From: Actinocorallia populi
GTDB lineage: Bacteria; Actinomycetota; Actinomycetes; Streptosporangiales; Streptosporangiaceae
Direction: 5' to 3'
Length of the DNA stretch: 64,000 bases
Assembly (NCBI RefSeq): GCF_002995495.1
Contig: NZ_PVZV01000007.1
Span: forward strand, 248,001 to 312,000
The position numbers and the translations under genes were made by a program. Under the pieces are notes generated by a model, which saw only the letters and a program-made list of their open reading frames with translations, ran no database searches and was not told the DNA's origin. Below, in pieces: positions 3,424 to 37,931 of this stretch; the stretch's first letter is position 1, and every line of letters starts with the position of its first letter.

Positions 3424-4068
3424 CTACAGCCCGGCGAAGCGGAGCTCGAGGCCGTCCAGGAGGGCCAGGAGGCCGGTCTCGAAGGCGGACCCGTCGATCT
3501 CCTGCTGGCGGTCGGCCAGGAGGTGGGCCTGGTCGAGGTGGGGGTACTCGCCGGCGTAGACGGCGGCGTCGTCGGGGAAGCCGCCGGCGAAGGAGCCCAG
3601 GGCCGAACCGATGACGAAGAAGCGCATGAGGGCGCCCACGCCGGTGGCCTCGCGGCGCGGCCAGCCGGCGTCCACCAGGCCGCCGAAGACGGCGTCGGCG
3701 ACGCGGAGCATGACGCGGCGGTGGCGGCCGGGGCCGCGGGCCAGGACGGGCACGATGTTGGGGTGGGCGGCCAGGGCGGCGCGGTAGGAGTGCGCCCAGG
3801 CGTACAGGGCGGCGCGCCAGCCGGGCTCGCCGCCGGGACGCAGCCCCTCGAACATCGACAGGTCCACCTCGGCGAGCACGGTGTCGGTGACGGCGTCGAG
3901 GAGCTCGTCCTTGGTGGCCACGTGGTTGTACAGGGAGGGGCCGCTGACGCCGAGCTCGGCGGCGAGCCGCCGGGTGGAGACCGCCTCCAGGCCCTCGGTG
4001 TCCAGCAAAGCCAGCGCCGCCTCGACGATGCGTTCACGGCTGAGCAGCGGCTGACGTGGCCGGGCCAA
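3424..4068 (-). CDS. TetR-family transcriptional regulator
   Basis: A 214-residue TetR with the HTH at residues 10-55 (SRERIVEAALALLDTEGLEA, then RLAAELGVSGPSLYNHVATK). The helical ligand-binding domain follows. The start is TTG, preceded by a GGGGGAG ribosome binding site; the first residues are MARPRQPLLS. It is divergent from a fatty-acyl-CoA ligase gene across a 159-base intergenic region holding two near-identical operator-like repeats. It therefore probably represses that ligase and itself, with an acyl-CoA as a reasonable but unproven inducer. Confidence 0.88.
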   Translation of the reverse strand: MARPRQPLLSRERIVEAALALLDTEGLEAVSTRRLAAELGVSGPSLYNHVATKDELLDAVTDTVLAEVDLSMFEGLRPGGEPGWRAALYAWAHSYRAALAAHPNIVPVLARGPGRHRRVMLRVADAVFGGLVDAGWPRREATGVGALMRFFVIGSALGSFAGGFPDDAAVYAGEYPHLDQAHLLADRQQEIDGSAFETGLLALLDGLELRFAGL

Positions 4069-4227: not shown

Positions 4228-5760
4228 ATGAGCGCGACGCTTTCCCTGGCCAGCGTCCTGGCCGAATCCGCCCGCCGCCGCCCGAGGCAGACCGCGCTGA
4301 TCCAGGGCGACCTGCGGCTGACCTACGCCGAGGTGTGGGAGCGCGCCCGAGCCCAGGCCGCGGCCCTGGTCCGGCTGGGGGTGCGGCCCGGGGACCGGGT
4401 CGCCCTGCTGTGCCCCAACACCGCGGAGTTCCCCCTGGCCTACTACGCGGTGCTGGCCGCCGGAGGCGTCGTGGTGCCCGTCCACCTGCTGCTCACCGCC
4501 CCCGAGATGGAGCACGTGCTGCGCGACAGCGAGGCGACGGTGCTGCTGTGCCACCCGCTGTTCGCCGAGGTCGCCGCGCAGGCCGCCGAGGCCGTCGGAA
4601 CACGGGTGTGCTCGCTGGGCCGGGGCCCGCTGCCCGGCACCGACGGCAGCCTGCCCGACCTCGCCGGGACCGTCGAGCCGCTGCAGACCTTCGTCGGGCG
4701 CGCCCCGGAGGACCCGGCCGTCGTCTTCTACACCAGCGGCACGACCGGGCGGCCCAAGGGCGCGGTGCTCAGCCACCTCAACCTGGTGATGAACGCCACG
4801 ATCAACGCCTTCGACTCCCACCCGGTGCGGCCCGGCCAGGTGGCGCTCGGGGCCCTGCCGCTGTTCCACATCTTCGGGCAGACGGTCAGCCTCAACTCCA
4901 CCTGGCGCGCGCTGGGGACGCTGGTGCTGCTGCCGCGCTTCGACCCCGCGCAGGCGGTCGAGCTGATGGTCGCCGAGGACGTGACGATCTTCCACGGGGT
5001 GCCGACGATGTACTTCGGGCTGGTGGAGGCCGCCAAGAACGCCTCCCGGCTGCCGGAGCTCGAACTGTGCGTCTCCGGCGGCGCCGCGCTGCCCAGGACG
5101 ATCCTGGAGTCCTTCGAGACCGCTTTCGGCACCCCGGTGTACGAGGGGTACGGGCTGTCGGAGACCTCGCCCACGGCCGCGGTCAACCAGCCGCTCTTCG
5201 GGACGCGCGCGGGCACCGTCGGGCACGCCATCTGGGGTGTGGAGGTGGAGATCGCCGCCCCCGACCGGCCCGACGAGATCGAACTGCTGCCGGCCGGAGC
5301 GCTCGGCGAGATCGTCATCCGCGGCCACAACGTCTTCACCGGCTACCTGGGCAACCCCGAGGCGACCACCGCGGCCCTGGTGGACGGCTGGTTCCGCACC
5401 GGCGACCTGGGCACCAAGGACGCCGACGGGTTCGTCACCATCGTCGACCGGCTCAAGGACATGATCATCCGCAGCGGGTTCAACGTCTACCCCACCGAGG
5501 TGGAGGAGGCGCTGCTGGCCCACCCGGACATCGCCGAGACCGCCGTCATCGGGCTGCCCGACCCGGTGACCGGCGAGGAGGTCTGCGCGGTCGTCGTCCC
5601 GGCGCCGGGCGCCCTGCCCGACGCCGACGAGATCATCGCCTTCGCGCGGGAGCGGCTCGGCCGGCACAAGTACCCGCGCCGCGTCGAGTTCGCCGCCGAG
5701 CTGCCCCTGGGCCCCAGCCACAAGGTGCTCAAGCGCGAGCTGCGCCGCCGGTACCTCTGA
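4228..5760 (+). CDS. fadD: Fatty-acid-CoA ligase (AMP-forming)
   Basis: A 510-residue ANL-superfamily ligase. Visible motifs are the phosphate loop YTSGTTGRPKG (about residues 169-179), the adenine motif YEGYGLSETSPT (about 307-318), GWFRTGDLG, the hinge DRLKDMIIRSG and the C-terminal catalytic lysine in GPSHKVLKREL. It activates a carboxylic acid to acyl-AMP and then acyl-CoA. Length and motif spacing fit medium/long-chain FadD enzymes more than acetyl-CoA synthetases. A canonical GGAGGAG ribosome binding site precedes the ATG. It is divergent from a TetR gene and convergent with an acyl-CoA dehydrogenase operon, suggesting a shared role in acid catabolism. Chain-length preference cannot be read from the sequence. 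Confidence 0.93.
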   Translation: MSATLSLASVLAESARRRPRQTALIQGDLRLTYAEVWERARAQAAALVRLGVRPGDRVALLCPNTAEFPLAYYAVLAAGGVVVPVHLLLTAPEMEHVLRDSEATVLLCHPLFAEVAAQAAEAVGTRVCSLGRGPLPGTDGSLPDLAGTVEPLQTFVGRAPEDPAVVFYTSGTTGRPKGAVLSHLNLVMNATINAFDSHPVRPGQVALGALPLFHIFGQTVSLNSTWRALGTLVLLPRFDPAQAVELMVAEDVTIFHGVPTMYFGLVEAAKNASRLPELELCVSGGAALPRTILESFETAFGTPVYEGYGLSETSPTAAVNQPLFGTRAGTVGHAIWGVEVEIAAPDRPDEIELLPAGALGEIVIRGHNVFTGYLGNPEATTAALVDGWFRTGDLGTKDADGFVTIVDRLKDMIIRSGFNVYPTEVEEALLAHPDIAETAVIGLPDPVTGEEVCAVVVPAPGALPDADEIIAFARERLGRHKYPRRVEFAAELPLGPSHKVLKRELRRRYL

Positions 5761-30229: not shown

Positions 30230-30757
30230 ATGCCCGATCAGCCAACCACTCTCGACCAGCTCGACATCCGGCTCCTGCGCGCGCTGGCCGACCATCCCCG
30301 CGCCGGCTTCCTCGAGCTGTCCCGGATCACCGGCACCTCCCGGGTGACCGTCCAGGCCCGGCTGGAACGGCTGGAGGAGGCGGGCGTCATCCGCGGCCAC
30401 GCCCCGCAGGTCGACCTGCCCAAGGCCGGCTATCCCGTCATGGCGTTCGTGACCCTGCAGATCTCGCAGGGCGCGCTGGCCGAGGTCGCCGAGCACCTGC
30501 GCGCCCTGCCCGCCGTCCTGGAGGCGCACGCGACCACCGGCCAGGACGACCTCCACTGCCGGCTGGCCGCCCCCTCCCACGAGGGGCTCCAAGAGGCCCT
30601 CCTGGCGCTCAACCGCATCCCCGACGTGGTGCGCACGACCAGCGTCATCGCCCTGTCGGAGCTCGTGGCCCCCCGCGTCCTGCCCCTCCTGGAGTCGGTG
30701 GAACGCCCCGAGCCGTCCCGCGTCCCGTCCTTCCGCCGCGCCGTCAGGCGGCCGTGA
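30230..30757 (+). CDS. AsnC/Lrp-family transcriptional regulator
   Basis: A 175-residue Lrp-type protein. The HTH occupies residues 7-55 (LDQLDIRLLRALADHPRAGF, RITGTSRVTVQARLERLEEA). The RAM effector domain follows (VMAFVTLQISQGALAEVAEH, HATTGQDDLHCRLAAPS). Divergent from hpd with a dyad between, so it most likely controls tyrosine degradation in response to an aromatic amino acid or keto acid; that assignment is from position. Its 3' end overlaps the convergent membrane-protein gene by 14 bases. Confidence 0.92.
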   Translation: MPDQPTTLDQLDIRLLRALADHPRAGFLELSRITGTSRVTVQARLERLEEAGVIRGHAPQVDLPKAGYPVMAFVTLQISQGALAEVAEHLRALPAVLEAHATTGQDDLHCRLAAPSHEGLQEALLALNRIPDVVRTTSVIALSELVAPRVLPLLESVERPEPSRVPSFRRAVRRP

Positions 30758-31379
30758 CGAGCGTCGCCGCCCCCGCGCCGATCAGCGCCACCGCCCACAC
30801 CCGGTCCAGGTTGAACCAGGCCCGCCGCAGCACCGCCAGTCCCACCACCTCGTAGACGACCAGGGCCACCGCGCCCGCCGCCGCGAACATCGCCAGCGTG
30901 TGCACCCCGGTGACGAAGACCGCCGCGCTGACGGCGTCACCTGCTCCCGCCCCTGCCCCCAGCCCGTGGTCATGCGCTCCTCCACCGCCCTCCATCGAGG
31001 TGAGCACGGGCAACAGCATCAGCCCTGCGCCGTGCGCAGAGGACATGAGGAACGACCAGACGGCCAGCTGCCACAACGACAGCCGCATCCCGACCCAGCG
31101 GAAATGCCGCTGCGACAACAACCTCCACAGCCCGAAACCGGCGAGCAGTGCTCCTCCCGCGATCGCCATCGCCTGGGTGGCGACCACCGACCGGGTCAGG
31201 GAGACCAGCACCGCCACCGCCGCGACCGAGGCGGCATGCCCTGCCGCGATGGCGGGCAACGACGCCAGCATGCGCGCGCGGGAACGTTCCTGCAGGCCCC
31301 GGGCGACCGCGAACAGCCACCCCATGCCGGGATTGAGTCCGTGGAAGGCTCCCAGGACCAGCAACGACGCCAGCGTCAC
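30744..31379 (-). CDS. Polytopic membrane protein coupled to the SBP56-type protein
   Basis: A 211-residue membrane protein with about six hydrophobic helices. The first starts VLGAFHGLNPGMGWLFAVAR and a later one holds SSAHGAGLMLLPV, two HG-motif helices reminiscent of NicO/RcnA-type metal permeases, although the HX4D signature is not intact. A Gly/His loop (GGGGAHDHGLG) lies between helices. The GTG start overlaps the stop of the SBP56-type gene (GTGA), so the two are translationally coupled. Role unknown; metal handling for its partner is an inference from the His residues and the coupling. Confidence 0.75.
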   Translation of the reverse strand: MTLASLLVLGAFHGLNPGMGWLFAVARGLQERSRARMLASLPAIAAGHAASVAAVAVLVSLTRSVVATQAMAIAGGALLAGFGLWRLLSQRHFRWVGMRLSLWQLAVWSFLMSSAHGAGLMLLPVLTSMEGGGGAHDHGLGAGAGAGDAVSAAVFVTGVHTLAMFAAAGAVALVVYEVVGLAVLRRAWFNLDRVWAVALIGAGAATLVTAA

Positions 31380-32773
31380 GGGAAGCAGTACGAGTCGGAG
31401 GAGGCGTCGCCGCCCTGGAGCCGGACCTGGTGGGGGCGCAGTCCCCGGAAGTCCTCTCCGTGCGGAAAGAAGCGCTCGTCGAAGGTGAACTCCTCGCCGG
31501 AGTCGAGCTTGGCCGCCCAGGCTCCCACGCCGTCCGGATAGAACTGGTCGTCCCAGGAGCCGTACAGGGAGTTGGTGACGTAGACGCGCTCACCGTCGCG
31601 GCTGACCTCGATCATCTGCGGACCGCCCGCCAGCGGCAGGTCCGGCTCCGCCGGGTGCGGGGTGCGGCCGACGATGCCGCCGATGCGCACCGAACCGGCC
31701 TCGACCGGGTTGAAGGGGTCGCTGACGTCGTAGCGCTTCAGTTCGCCGGTCCCCCAGGCCGAGACGTACAGGTACGCGTCGTCCACGGACAGGGCGATGT
31801 CGGTGACCAGCGGCGGGACGGCGCCGAAGGGGGCGATGACCGGCGGGAGCGAAGCCGGGTCGGCGGGCTCGGCGGGGATGGTGATGACCTTCTTCACCGC
31901 GAACTCGCCGCCCTCCCTGTACCAGAGCCACACCGAGGCCGACAGGTCCTCCACGTCCACCACGACGCCCACGAACCCGTACTGCGCCGTGGGGTCGTGG
32001 GCGGGCCGCAGCTCCAGTGCCATCTGGTACCGGTCGCCCAGGTCGATGCTCTGGATGTGCCTGCGCTTGCGCAGGTCGAAGAAGTGCAGGGAGTGCCCGT
32101 ACTGGCGGCCCAGGAGCAGCTCTCCGACGACCCCGTCCTCGACCATCGACGGAGTGCCCCACTCGGACGTCACCAGGACGTCGTGCGCGATGTGCCACCA
32201 GAAGTCGTAGGCGAGGTACTGCGGGCCGCGGTCGACCTCCCAGCGGCCCAGCACCTCGAACGAGGTGTGGTCGAGCAGCGCGATGCCGCCGGGGCCCTCC
32301 TGGCCGGAGGCGCCGCCGAGCGCGGAGACGTACAGGCCCTCCGGGCCGCAGTGCACGGTGTGTGGGCGGGAGTAGCCGGCGCGCTCGGCCAGCTCCTCGG
32401 GCTCCAGGACCTTGACGATCTGCGGGGCGCGCGGGTCGGCCTTGGTGTCGATGACGTAGATCCGCGAGGAGCGCAGACCGGGGACGATGAGGTAGCGGCG
32501 TTCGACGTGCGGGTGGGGGGCGCCGGGGCAGAGGGCGCTGCTGCAGGCGTTCCAGCCGAAGTGGTGGAGTTCGTCCCCGAGGTGGGGCAGGTCCGTCCAG
32601 CCCACGACCTCGCCGTAGGAGTCCGACTCGGGGTCGGTGTCCAGGACGGCCATCGCGTCGGGCTTCTCGGCGGCCCGGTCGAAGGCGGCCACGTAGGCCA
32701 GCTTCTCCGGCGGGGCCGAGGCCGCGTCCCTGGGAGAGGGGTAGAAGGTCGGATCGGGCTTCCACAGCGCCAT
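31376..32773 (-). CDS. Selenium-binding protein 56/methanethiol oxidase family
   Basis: A 465-residue beta-propeller of the SBP56 family. Signatures include FYPSPRDAASAPPEKLAYVA, HHFGWNACSSALC, RSSRIYVIDTKADPRAP, SRPHTVHCGPEGLYVSALGG, WWHIAHDVLVTSEWGTP, YGHSLHFFDLRKRRHIQSID, SLSVDDAYLYVSAWGTGE-like strands and the closing FRGLRPHQVRLQGGD. Bacterial members oxidise methanethiol to formaldehyde, H2S and H2O2 and depend on copper; the conserved His residues would be ligands. A good GAGGAG site precedes the ATG. Formaldehyde made here could be removed by the mycothiol pathway at 55.8 kb. The promoter carries a perfect palindrome. Confidence 0.9.
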   Translation of the reverse strand: MALWKPDPTFYPSPRDAASAPPEKLAYVAAFDRAAEKPDAMAVLDTDPESDSYGEVVGWTDLPHLGDELHHFGWNACSSALCPGAPHPHVERRYLIVPGLRSSRIYVIDTKADPRAPQIVKVLEPEELAERAGYSRPHTVHCGPEGLYVSALGGASGQEGPGGIALLDHTSFEVLGRWEVDRGPQYLAYDFWWHIAHDVLVTSEWGTPSMVEDGVVGELLLGRQYGHSLHFFDLRKRRHIQSIDLGDRYQMALELRPAHDPTAQYGFVGVVVDVEDLSASVWLWYREGGEFAVKKVITIPAEPADPASLPPVIAPFGAVPPLVTDIALSVDDAYLYVSAWGTGELKRYDVSDPFNPVEAGSVRIGGIVGRTPHPAEPDLPLAGGPQMIEVSRDGERVYVTNSLYGSWDDQFYPDGVGAWAAKLDSGEEFTFDERFFPHGEDFRGLRPHQVRLQGGDASSDSYCFP

Positions 32774-34785: not shown

Positions 34786-35892
34786 TCAGGCGGAGGCGGC
34801 CTCGGCGATGACCGCGTCGACCTCCTCGCGGCGCGCCGCCTCCTCGGCCGCGAAGCGCTCGGCGTCGAGCCGGTCGGCGAGCTCCTCGTCCTGGGCCATC
34901 AGCGCCTCCAGGTCCCCCTTGGACATCTCCAGGACGCCCATGTCGGCGTAGGCGTTCTGGACGCGCTCGCTCCACAGGCCGATGTCCTTCACGCACGGGA
35001 CGATCCGGCTGAACAGCAGGCTCTGGAAGATCTTCATGTACTCCGACTCGCGGGCCAGGCGGCTCGCCTCGTCCCTGGGGATGCCGAAGTTCTCCCACAC
35101 CTCCAGGCCCTGGAAGCGGTCGCGCATGAGGTAGCAGCCCTCGATGACGAACTCCTCGCGCTCGCGGCGCTCGGTGTCGGTGAGTTCGCGGTAGTGGTCG
35201 CGCAGCGCGAGCCGGCCGAAGGCGACGTGGCGGGCCTCGTCCTGCATGACGTAGGTGAGCATCTGCTTGGGGAGCTCGGCCGTCGTCATGTCCCGCACGA
35301 GGCCGAAGGCCGCCAGGGCGAGGCCTTCGATGAGCACCTGCATGCCGAGGTAGGGCATGTCCCAGCGGCTGTCGGAGAGGGTGTCGTCGAGCAGCGACCG
35401 CAGGTTGTCGTTGATGGGGTAGACGAGTTCGAGCTTCTCGTGCAGGAACTTGCCGAACAGCTCGACGTGGCGGGCCTCGTCCATGGTCTGGGTGGCGGAG
35501 TAGAACTTGGCGTCGAGGTCCGGGACGGTCTCCACGATCCGGGCACCGGTGATCATCGCGCCCTGCTCGCCGTGCAGGAACTGGGAGAACTGCCAGGAGG
35601 TCAGGTGCAGCCGCAGCTCTCCCCGCTCCCTGTCGTTCATCTTCTCCCAGTAGGGGGTGCCGTAGATGGCGTTGGCCTGGTCGGGCAGGCCGAGCGGGTT
35701 GGCGGGGTCGACGTCAAGGCTCCAGTCGATGCGCTTGACGGCGTCCCACTGCTTGTCCTTGCCTTTCTGGTACAGATTGAGAAGCCTGTCACGGCCCTCG
35801 TCGTATTCCCAGGTGAATCGGCTGTCACCGGCCAGCGGCACGTTCCAGGTCTCCCGGGAAACGGGGGCGGTGTAAAGCTCGTGGGTCGACAC
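34786..35892 (-). CDS. Ferritin-like diiron oxygenase/oxidoreductase
   Basis: A 368-residue helical protein with a carboxylate-bridged diiron site. Ligands can be read in FLHGEQGAM (Glu, about residue 109), QTMDEARHVELF (ExxH), LIEGLALAAFG (Glu) and VMQDEARHVAFG (second ExxH). This two-repeat E...ExxH...E...ExxH layout is that of ribonucleotide-reductase R2-like/AurF-like oxygenases. The substrate is unknown; proteins of this type are annotated only as ferritin-like domain-containing. The C-terminal 60 residues are a charged helix. The start is GTG after GGGAG. A TetR gene faces it across two near-identical operators. Confidence 0.88.
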   Translation of the reverse strand: MSTHELYTAPVSRETWNVPLAGDSRFTWEYDEGRDRLLNLYQKGKDKQWDAVKRIDWSLDVDPANPLGLPDQANAIYGTPYWEKMNDRERGELRLHLTSWQFSQFLHGEQGAMITGARIVETVPDLDAKFYSATQTMDEARHVELFGKFLHEKLELVYPINDNLRSLLDDTLSDSRWDMPYLGMQVLIEGLALAAFGLVRDMTTAELPKQMLTYVMQDEARHVAFGRLALRDHYRELTDTERREREEFVIEGCYLMRDRFQGLEVWENFGIPRDEASRLARESEYMKIFQSLLFSRIVPCVKDIGLWSERVQNAYADMGVLEMSKGDLEALMAQDEELADRLDAERFAAEEAARREEVDAVIAEAASA

Positions 35893-35975: not shown

Positions 35976-36596
35976 TTGCTCAGCAAGGGGCGCATCATCG
36001 ACGCGGCGATCGCGCTGGTCGAACGGCACGGCGAGGACGCGCTGTCCATGCGGGCCGTCGCCGCGGAGCTGGACGTGGCGGTCATGTCCCTGTACAACCA
36101 CGTCCCCAGCAAGGCCGCGCTCCTGGACGGCATCGCCCACCGCGTGATGACCGGCCTGTACCTGGACGAGGACACCGGGGCCGACTGGAAGACCCAGGCC
36201 CGCACGCTCATCCGCGCCTTCCGCCGGGTGGCGCGCGACTACCCGGCCTGCATGAACCTCATCGTCACGCACAGCGTGGAGCTGCCGTTCGGCATCAGGC
36301 CGATCGAGCGGGCGCTGGTCATCGCCGACTCGGCCGGATTCGACGGGCCCACCTCGGTCCGGGTGATGCGCGCGATCATCGCCTACGCGCTGGGCGCCCA
36401 GCTGCGCGAGACCGACATGGTGAAGATGCTGGACTACCTGCCGGCCGACCCGGCGGCGGCCTTCGCCGAGCTCGACCCGGTGGAGTTCCCCCACGTGACC
36501 GCGCTGGCCAAGGAGCTCACCGCGCACGACCCCGAGACGGACTTCGAGTTCGGCCTCGAGCTGTTCATCAGCGCGCTCGACACGCTGCCGCGCTGA
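35976..36596 (+). CDS. TetR-family transcriptional regulator
   Basis: A 206-residue TetR. HTH: KGRIIDAAIALVERHGEDAL then RAVAAELDVAVMSLYNHVPS (residues 4-48). The C-terminal part matches the TetR_C type (DYPACMNLIVTHSVELPFGI, RVMRAIIAYALGAQLRETDM). The TTG start is preceded by GGAAAGG. Its operators are visible directly upstream, so it controls itself and the diiron oxygenase gene. The operator half-site resembles that of another TetR 3.5 kb away. Confidence 0.9.
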   Translation: MLSKGRIIDAAIALVERHGEDALSMRAVAAELDVAVMSLYNHVPSKAALLDGIAHRVMTGLYLDEDTGADWKTQARTLIRAFRRVARDYPACMNLIVTHSVELPFGIRPIERALVIADSAGFDGPTSVRVMRAIIAYALGAQLRETDMVKMLDYLPADPAAAFAELDPVEFPHVTALAKELTAHDPETDFEFGLELFISALDTLPR

Positions 36597-36601
36597 AACG
36601 T

Positions 36602-36689
36602 CCGGCGCGGACGGCGCCGGGAACGGCTCCGTGCGGGGATCCTCCACTCTCCCGCATGGAGCGGTCCACGAACGGGCCGTCCGCGCCGC
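36602..36689. ncRNA. Structured intergenic element: two-tier hairpin between convergent genes
   Basis: An outer stem pairs 36602-36614 (CCGGCGCGGACGG) with 36677-36689 (CCGTCCGCGCCGC) over 12 Watson-Crick pairs. Inside, 36627-36637 (CTCCGTGCGGG) pairs with 36651-36661 (CCCGCATGGAG) through 11 pairs including one G-U. It follows the TetR stop on the plus strand and the tiny ORF on the minus strand, so it may be a bidirectional terminator. The nested design over 88 bases is more than a terminator needs, so a structured RNA is possible. Confidence 0.45.
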
Positions 36690-36697
36690 GGGGGTTT

Positions 36698-36772
36698 TCA
36701 GCCGGAATGCTTGGCGCTGGCGGCCCCGCGCAGGCCCACCGTTCCCGGCCGGTGGATCAGGATCTTCTTCAT
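36698..36772 (-). CDS. 24-residue small ORF with a strong ribosome binding site (putative short peptide)
   Basis: An ATG placed eight bases after a perfect AGGAGG opens a 24-codon frame ending in TGA. The peptide starts MKKILIHRPGTVGL and ends with a small-residue-rich, Lys/His-containing tail (AASAKHSG). I do not recognise a named family. It has no cysteine, so it is not a classical lanthipeptide core. The basic N-terminus plus hydrophobic ILI is too short for a transmembrane helix or signal peptide. The unusually good ribosome binding site, its own upstream A+T-rich region and the structured element after the stop argue for real expression, possibly as a short regulatory or precursor peptide. 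Confidence 0.45.
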   Translation of the reverse strand: MKKILIHRPGTVGLRGAASAKHSG

Positions 36773-36956
36773 GGGGGGTTCCTCCTGGAGAATGACAACC
36801 CGGACGGGAGCTAACAATTCCATGCTTTCCACCTGAAGTGCGACTTCTGTTTCAAAAGGTGAGACAAATAACCCCGGGGACCGACCGCCGATGCACCTGC
36901 TCGCCCATCGCGATCTCCATTGAAACGGATATCTATCCCAGATAAGGATGTATGTC
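36773..36956. promoter_or_regulatory. Divergent promoter region between the small ORF and the epimerase gene
   Basis: A relatively A+T-rich stretch without another gene. It contains a perfect 13-base palindrome GAAGTGCGACTTC (36835-36847), a possible operator. It presumably drives both the minus-strand small ORF and the plus-strand epimerase. Confidence 0.4.
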
Positions 36957-37931
36957 ATGAAAGTCCTAATTCTTGGCGGCACCCGGTTCGTCGGAACGAT
37001 CGCGGCGCAGGAGGCCGTCTCCCGCGGCCACCACGTCACGGTGTTCAACCGCGGCACCCGTCCCGCGCCCGCCGGAACGGCCATGCTGACCGGCGACCGG
37101 CTCGGTGGTCTGGACGCGCTGCGCACCGGCTCCTGGGACCTGGTGATCGACACCTGGAAGGGCGCGCCCCGCGCCGTGCGGGAGACGGCCCGCCTGCTGG
37201 CCGGACGGGCCGGCCACTACACCTACGTCTCGTCCCGGTCCGTCTACGCCCAGCCCGCGCCGCCCGGAGGCGACGAGAGCGGCCCGCTGGTCGAGGGCGC
37301 CGCCCCCGACGCCGGAGACGTGCCCTATCCGCAGGCCAAGCTCGGCGGGGAGATGGCCGTGGCCGAGTCCTTCGGCGACCGCGCGCTGTTCGCCCGCGCG
37401 GGGCTCGTCCTCGGCCCGTACGAGAACGTCGGCCGCCTCCCCTGGTGGCTGGACCGGGTCTCCCGGGGCGGCACGATCCCCGCACCGGGCCCCGCCGACC
37501 TGCCCCTGCAGTTCATCGACGCCCGCGACCTCGCCCGTTTCCTGCTGGACCACCCCGCCACCGGAGGCGCCTTCGACCTGATCGGTCCGCCCGGCCACAC
37601 CACGATGCGCGGCCTGCTGGAGGCCTGCGCCGCGGCGACCGGCACCGCCCCCGACCTCCGCTGGCTCTCCCCCGAACAGGTGGAGGCCGCGGGCGTGGAG
37701 CCGTGGTCGGACCTGCCGGTCTGGCTGCCGCCGGGCGAACTCCACGACACCATGCACTCCGGCGACCCCGCCAAGGCCCTCGCCCGCGGCCTGGTCTGCC
37801 GCCCGGCCGCCGAGACCGTCGCCGGCACCTGGGCCTGGATGCGCTCCTCCGGCTGGAGCGCCCCCGACACCGTCTTCGGCCGGAAGGTGGGGCTTTCCCC
37901 CGAGCAGGAGAAGGCCCTGCTCGCCGCCTAG
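36957..37931 (+). CDS. NAD(P)-dependent epimerase/dehydratase-like (extended SDR)
   Basis: A 324-residue extended/atypical SDR. It begins MKVLILGGTRFVGTIAAQEA with the GGTRFVG nucleotide-binding loop, followed by HVTVFNRGTRP (dinucleotide-specificity strand). SSRSVYAQPAPPGG and YPQAKLGGEM lie where the active-site Tyr/Lys would be. The YxxxK motif is replaced by YPQAK, which still places Tyr and Lys four apart. Such proteins are usually labelled reductase or epimerase; substrate unknown. The second ATG is chosen because AAGG lies at proper distance; the first ATG three codons earlier has none. It overlaps the convergent ychJ by four bases. Confidence 0.85.
   Translation: MKVLILGGTRFVGTIAAQEAVSRGHHVTVFNRGTRPAPAGTAMLTGDRLGGLDALRTGSWDLVIDTWKGAPRAVRETARLLAGRAGHYTYVSSRSVYAQPAPPGGDESGPLVEGAAPDAGDVPYPQAKLGGEMAVAESFGDRALFARAGLVLGPYENVGRLPWWLDRVSRGGTIPAPGPADLPLQFIDARDLARFLLDHPATGGAFDLIGPPGHTTMRGLLEACAAATGTAPDLRWLSPEQVEAAGVEPWSDLPVWLPPGELHDTMHSGDPAKALARGLVCRPAAETVAGTWAWMRSSGWSAPDTVFGRKVGLSPEQEKALLAA

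Follow-up and report, generated by a model that had tools for sequence, protein, structure and literature searches.

A conserved 24-codon gene in Actinocorallia populi and its probable TPR-protein partner

Is a minus-strand frame of 24 codons in Actinocorallia populi a gene, and if it is, with what does its product work? The frame encodes MKKILIHRPGTVGLRGAASAKHSG, ends in TGA, and occupies 36698..36772 (stop included) of the window, that is, of the whole 64,000-nucleotide stretch of contig NZ_PVZV01000007.1 analysed here. A Shine-Dalgarno sequence, AGGAGG, lies at 36781..36786 on the same strand, 8 bases ahead of the ATG. A first-pass annotation made from the sequence alone had singled out this frame and its perfect site, and the observation stands: the window has three instances of AGGAGG at exactly this spacing, where shuffles predict 0.30. 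The frame stays open upstream to 37153 (151 codons counted from a GTG); the ATG was chosen because of the Shine-Dalgarno site and the starts of relatives. The annotation had also given the frame an A+T-rich upstream region of its own. The drop in composition is real, with a G+C content of 0.50-0.55 upstream of the micropeptide (100-base windows, 36750 to 36999) and of 0.66-0.76 across the ORF and the adjoining hairpin. However, the A+T-richer region (36787..36947), a probable promoter for the minus strand, is shared: part of it also serves the divergent NAD-dependent epimerase-like gene at 36948..37931 (plus strand; ORF list and Pfam scan), a neighbour outside the module described below, and a sigma-70-type scan upstream of the micropeptide gave no promoter match. 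The predicted peptide is strongly basic (pI ~12, the calculator's ceiling), has a GRAVY of -0.19, and on inspection contains no hydrophobic stretch, the longest run being ILI. It matches 0 families among Pfam, NCBIfam and PADLOC profiles, which are weak tools at 24 residues, and the peptides of four relatives likewise match 0 families in family profile sets.

Relatives of the peptide are widespread. By tblastn (E<=0.1) they are present in 162 of the 341 family genomes and in 33 of 68 genera, and both other genomes of the genus carry one. A 24-row peptide profile matches 151 of 345 genomes of the order (E<=0.01); six of these matches fall at E 0.004-0.01, and six chance-like short matches outside the family fall at 0.001-0.01. 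A pattern scan of named genomes returned 140 matches, 79 of which were confirmed, giving 78 loci. Most are from Nonomuraea; Streptosporangium, Microtetraspora, Acrocarpospora, Planomonospora, Actinomadura and others are also represented. The tblastn and pattern searches bear out the vague impression, recorded in the first-pass annotation, that similar short ORFs occur in other actinobacteria. The peptide is 24 residues long in 74 of the 78 loci, its sequence is similar across genera, and some genomes hold two or three copies. Gly-10 and His-22 are invariant (78/78 each) and Ala-18 nearly so (75/78). Residues 1-9 were partly fixed by the search pattern, so the invariance of His-7 among these loci is partly a matter of how they were selected; Gly-10 and His-22 lie outside the pattern.

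Selection acts on the codons. In 23 close pairs, picked by hand and with some loci entering twice, the 483 codons compared show 54 synonymous versus 17 non-synonymous changes, and the 79 base differences are distributed 15/6/58 over codon positions 1, 2 and 3. The codon-level check that the first-pass annotation had proposed comes out in favour of a coding frame, third-position differences being dominant. Differences amount to 0.055 per base within the frame, versus 0.176 and 0.123 per alignment column (gaps counted) downstream and upstream. Across 2775 pairs of distinct copies the uncorrected pN/pS is 0.37-0.46 by bin, which is milder than in the close pairs; paralogues are mixed into this set and it is saturated. 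Taken together, this makes the frame of 24 codons a genuine gene under coding selection. A frame open by accident in G+C-rich intergenic DNA, an option the earlier annotation had kept, would suit the shortness of the ORF and its openness far upstream, but the conservation and codon evidence contradict it; we take this explanation as refuted and give it practically no credence.

Directly behind the stop codon is a two-tier hairpin (36602..36689, no strand assigned), which lies between the micropeptide gene and the convergent TetR-family regulator gene at 35976..36596 (plus strand; ORF list and Pfam scan), also a neighbour outside the module. Its outer stem, read from the sequence, has 12 bp (36604-36615 paired with 36676-36687), and there is an inner stem. 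The structure noticed in the first pass is real and stable: the fold of 36590-36705 scores z = -6.2 when read from the plus strand and -4.5 from the minus, with 0 of 200 shuffles equalling it. A special structured RNA has less to recommend it and was rejected; Rfam at gathering thresholds gives no match anywhere in the 64-kb window, and the hairpins of relatives are unlike one another in sequence. A terminator-like role suffices, because the hairpin sits between two convergent genes. Like an intrinsic terminator it has a stable G+C stem; unlike one it has no U run after the stem, the terminator scan of 36500..37050 finding 0 sites with a T run and inspection by eye showing at most TTTT (plus) or TTT (minus) beside it. 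The label is suggested by the position of the hairpin and by the hairpins behind relatives' stops, where z falls below -2 in 42 of the 78 loci, as compared with 4 of 78 in control sequence taken from upstream. The outer stem was also considered as a repeated element and rejected; its sequence has 24 matches in the window (<=1 mismatch), near the 20.7 expected. A tRNA scan of the window found none.

The partner of the peptide is indicated by gene neighbourhood. By tblastn, 69 of the 78 loci have behind the peptide gene, and in its orientation, a gene of a single family that we name F0; a regular-expression search, since replaced, had reached 52 of 78. The distance by alignment is at most ~260 bases in 68 loci and ~1.1 kb in one. 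The gene preceding the peptide varies: scripted calling gave 17 classes, an overcount from crude gene calls that by eye merges to about ten. The commonest, in 45 loci, is a gene which we recognised by eye and take to be ftsY; 45 of the 69 linked loci have one common context. Script start choices left usable F0 starts in 51 of the 69 linked loci. The F0 tree holds 68 of these 69 (L043, cut by a contig end, was left out); some of its rows, for which no start codon was chosen, run from their first aligned residue, and the L116 branch is very long and unreliable.

Peptide and F0 also occur together. Among 341 genomes compared with the peptide profile, with lists transcribed by hand from the profile and F0 searches, 147 have both, 4 the peptide only, 11 F0 only and 179 neither; when profile matches at E 0.004-0.01 are removed, both and peptide-only become 143 and 2. 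A Fisher p-value for this table overstates independence, because the genomes are related. Three of the 11 F0-only genomes (G027, G044, G190) carry the M50 type described below, with its own peptide, and the other eight are unexplained. Two of the four peptide-only genomes are near the profile cutoff; G248 (Actinomadura logoneensis, locus L052), an assembly of ~1050 contigs, is the one sound case of a peptide with no F0 found, and G280 is a weaker case. F0 is thus probably the partner of the peptide.

Nine of the 78 loci have no F0 directly behind the peptide: L064, L071, L072, L079, L091, L061, L065, L096 and L052. The first five adjoin a gene of one sequence cluster, whose member in L064 scores as an NsdA-family regulator. 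F0 is present elsewhere in the genome for L064 (G308), L071 (G200), L072 (G314) and L079 (G309), as assigned by matching contig coordinates, and for L091 by way of the same strain's locus L062. A second peptide locus near a gene of this cluster keeps its F0 in L090, L112, L114 and L116. F0 is nearby but on the other strand in L061 and L065. Peptides with a C-terminal extension (HADP...) are found in L061, L065 and L096; in L061 and L096 a TPR gene stands ahead of them, and its L061 member is similar to the C-terminus of HaaT/AfsR-type proteins. Two operator-like repeats, picked by eye, recur upstream of the peptide: TGTCC/GG.CA in 13 of 78 loci versus 59 of 7317 background windows, and GG.AA/TT.CC in 25 of 78 versus 31 of 7317 (an example is at L125 around 5680-5740). 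They suggest a regulator of the peptide-F0 module. These motifs of the linked copies were not found upstream of the window copy.

The window copy is itself unlinked from F0. This genome has one F0 (E<=1e-5), on a contig other than that of the window, and one peptide match (E below 0.2), which is the window copy. In both congeners (G001 and G002) the peptide sits at a different place, beside F0, in the order PcrA, SRPBCC, peptide, F0, GH15, sucC, sucD (names other than peptide and F0 presumed by eye). The A. populi genome retains the PcrA-SRPBCC-F0-GH15-sucC-sucD row intact, minus the peptide, and the sequence ahead of the missing gene still aligns in part with the congeners. Its F0 is sister to the two congeneric F0s (SH-aLRT 100, quick method). 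Identity of the window peptide to those of the congeners is 59% but reaches 79% with that of Actinomadura barringtoniae; for this reason a foreign replacement is possible, with 24 residues too few for proof. The site does not look shared, since only one of the two congeners has a match to the flanking epimerase, at 43%. Loss of the frame from close relatives with the same flanking genes, the refuting condition named in the first-pass annotation, therefore applies only loosely here; both congeners do have the peptide.

Being unlinked, the window peptide probably acts in trans. A leader peptide or attenuator acting in cis on F0 by way of the hairpin behind the peptide would explain why so many loci have such a hairpin, most with F0 next, but synonymous changes dominate the close pairs, and there is no F0 behind the window peptide, nor behind those of the five NsdA-adjacent loci. 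For the window copy this explanation was rejected on account of the unlinked F0, and overall it is very improbable.

F0 proteins have ~550-700 residues (581 in this genome) and consist of an N-terminal domain, to about residue 163, followed by TPR repeats. The N-terminus resembles AAA_16 ATPases below threshold (E 0.1, and E 0.0013 in one relative), which is why we speak of a degenerate NTPase. General TPR models, and only these, match the three F0s scanned with Pfam; the same scan gave no glycosyltransferase match. A model of the F0 of a relative (L047), made from a 38-row alignment, has a mean pLDDT of 95.1. Its TPR part matches the TPR part of O-GlcNAc transferase (OGT; 1w3b, Z 22.8, 380 aligned, rmsd 6.9), the pheromone receptor NprR (5dbk, Z 18.3, 288 aligned, rmsd 7.2), and peptide complexes of LGN and KLC1. 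Since TPR superhelices look alike, these matches show fold rather than peptide binding, and the fold search barely probed the N-terminal domain. The TPR part is a confidently predicted superhelix whose shape suits peptide binding. Invariant Asn-Arg pairs (N361, N429, N463 and N564 in L047) occupy, by eye, one place in the repeat, and the asparagine superposes on that of OGT in several aligned repeats. In OGT this asparagine ladder faces the lumen and touches peptide backbones, according to the available part of PMC10618255. The recurring Asn and the modelled superhelix are thus likenesses to OGT; F0 differs in its N-terminal domain and in the lack of a glycosyltransferase match. The TPR part of L047 F0 is acidic (pI 4.8) versus a peptide pI of ~12, a predicted contrast that fits electrostatic attraction.

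We propose that the conserved micropeptide is a cytosolic ligand of the TPR groove of F0, acting in trans in this genome, and rate the chance of this as about even. The peptide would be made from its own transcript and remain in the cytosol, because it has no hydrophobic export signal. It would be unmodified, and would lie extended, as a strand, within the acidic superhelix, a placement suggested by the fold likeness, the Asn ladder and the charge contrast. Binding may then switch or load F0. In A. populi the peptide gene would have become separated from F0 and work from its new site. The proposal draws on computed results: coding selection, F0 linkage and co-occurrence, the unlinking, the TPR superhelix of a relative, and homology to the peptides of a second type of operon.

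That second type of operon came to light in a wider sample. F0 is present in 19 of 394 genomes drawn from the class, 16 of them in the peptide's own family. In the three outside it (G353, G434, G572) a protein of 396-419 residues precedes F0, with an HExxH motif invariant in the three aligned sequences and with hydrophobic stretches by eye; on the basis of HExxH we take it, by eye, to be of M50 type. A peptide such as MKKIKVRKAGTVRLTTSAAIYATPLCWPV precedes this protein in all three. Six further such operons lie inside the family, making nine, and their F0s form one group in the F0 tree (support 100). Each of the nine peptide tails contains Cys and Tyr. Compared with the 24-residue form they have the same Ala at position 18 (9/9), Arg versus His at position 7 (9/9), and Tyr versus His at position 22 (8/9). 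The 24-residue profile matches eight of the nine at E 8e-9 to 2e-4 and the ninth at 0.42; the best of 1800 shuffled copies reaches only E 0.037. From these comparisons we conclude that the two peptide types are of common ancestry. The micropeptide would accordingly be kin to peptides of RiPP-like operons with a PqqD/M50-like membrane protein, and a RiPP-like ancestry is suggested; any direction of descent between the two branches would be conjecture.

The PqqD likeness of the M50-like protein is weak. PF05402 PqqD matches two of four N-termini, at E 0.10 and 0.13, but is outscored there by RsmI_C (0.011) and FAD_binding_4 (0.03); one M50-like protein is matched by a lasso PqqD model at E 0.067. 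The full-length G353 protein has no Pfam family at E 0.1, the M50-type profile has no match among PDB sequences, and RiPP family models give nothing above threshold against the peptides and M50-like proteins. No M50-type protein was found in this genome at the thresholds used, and none among the 78 peptide loci. The profile itself works, as it matches 18 of 100 genomes, seven of them at E<1e-130 (G353, a source row, among these).

Such operons raise the possibility that the micropeptide is a RiPP precursor, with residues 1 to ~15 as leader and the tail GAASAKHSG as a core modified by an enzyme encoded elsewhere, F0 then being a scaffold or chaperone. In layout, with a peptide ahead of a PqqD/M50-like gene, the nine sister operons recall known RiPP operons that combine a leader-binding PqqD/RRE domain with a membrane M50 protease and have pearlin- or epipeptide-like parts, and the 24-residue form is homologous to their Cys/Tyr-tailed peptides. 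Membrane M50 proteases are named for pearlin and epipeptide pathways in the accessible portion of PMC10885120. The invariant His at position 22 would also fit, and the surroundings of the window copy include an AurF-like (p-aminobenzoate N-oxygenase family) diiron oxygenase gene at 34786..35892, on the micropeptide's strand beyond the TetR gene. However, no action on peptides is known for this AurF-like gene, the tail shows conservation where a core would be expected to vary, the PqqD match is outscored as described, and this genome and the 78 loci have no M50-type protein at the thresholds used. A Pfam scan of six window neighbours found no RiPP-specific family, the oxygenase being the one AurF-like match. 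The reading is kept because the sister operons are RiPP-like and the AurF-like gene is near; for the window copy RiPP membership is a candidate reading, and modification appears unlikely, if still worth reckoning with. The first-pass suggestion of a short signalling or modified peptide precursor was in the right neighbourhood, whichever of its two halves applies.

If the ligand of F0 is instead exported, it could be a pheromone read by F0 in an actinobacterial analogue of RRNPP signalling. The gene is small, has a good Shine-Dalgarno site, adjoins a TPR gene in relatives, and is present in two or three copies in some genomes; in the sister operons an M50-like protein adjoins F0, and the M50 protease Eep matures enterococcal pheromones. 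Against this, the peptide has no hydrophobic stretch for Sec export (ILI is the longest run), and its sequence stays similar from genus to genus, whereas divergence is usual among pheromone codes. This explanation is improbable. RRNPP systems (Rap-Phr, PlcR-PapR, NprR-NprX; Bacillota) are nevertheless among the nearest known parallels. They too place a small peptide gene beside a TPR gene, as in 69 of the 78 loci, although not at the window copy, which is unlinked, and the modelled superhelix of F0 is comparable with NprR. They differ in that their propeptides are secreted by Sec (PptAB in exceptions), their receptors have ~250-500 residues, while F0 is longer and has an extra N-terminal domain, and they belong to another phylum; F0 is matched only by general TPR models. 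Because Sec export (by inspection) and receptor size both disagree, the peptide-F0 pair is not classed as RRNPP. The defining features of RRNPP used here are those in the part of PMC10075063 that was available, which also describes intracellular peptide-TPR signalling for Bacillota and actinobacterial signals as typically small molecules.

Returning to the unmodified ligand, a broader proposal can be made tentatively, as possible rather than expected: that these genes form a new actinobacterial peptide-TPR class related to RiPPs. One branch would have the PqqD/M50-like protein and the Cys/Tyr tail; the other would be an unmodified, dedicated intracellular ligand of 24 residues with no processing gene, bound by a degenerate-NTPase/TPR switch and inheritable unlinked from its receptor. 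The peptide is present in nearly half of the sampled family genomes (162/341) and its sister branch is RiPP-operon-like; if the proposal is true, one can test directly for a link that joins the making of modified peptides to regulation by plain ones. The case is also an example of how a gene of 24 codons may be identified through its partner.

No description of a peptide-TPR pair that has RiPP-like relatives was found in open-licence PMC literature, as searched by titles and abstract openings, and the letters of the peptide motif do not occur in open-licence PMC papers. The available text of PMC12710340 contains no occurrence of M50, tetratricopeptide or Streptosporangi. The peptide profile gives weak short matches in the PDB to eukaryotic dishevelled (E 0.083 or worse), taken as chance. 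A known defence system was rejected because PADLOC profiles match neither the peptide nor F0 nor the M50-like protein, and phage cargo because none of 26 pattern matches in viral contigs was confirmed. Elsewhere in the window are a selenium-binding protein SBP56 gene (31376-32773) and, following it on the same strand, a small frame (30744-31379) that looks by eye like a membrane protein. A Cys-tailed peptide searched against plasmids gave no match, and a low-complexity filter may hide one. Plasmid records with an M50-type homologue are mostly from Streptomyces (21 of 27). On a plasmid of Streptomyces sp. NBC_00376 (L178) the homologue has a ThiF-family adenylyltransferase and a BTAD regulator as neighbours and may belong to another RiPP-like cluster. 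On a plasmid of Streptomyces sp. NBC_01450 (L177) a 57-residue ORF at 3725-3898, with a diverged MRKISVRRTEPIKVTSAP... stretch, precedes an M50-type gene and a TPR gene.
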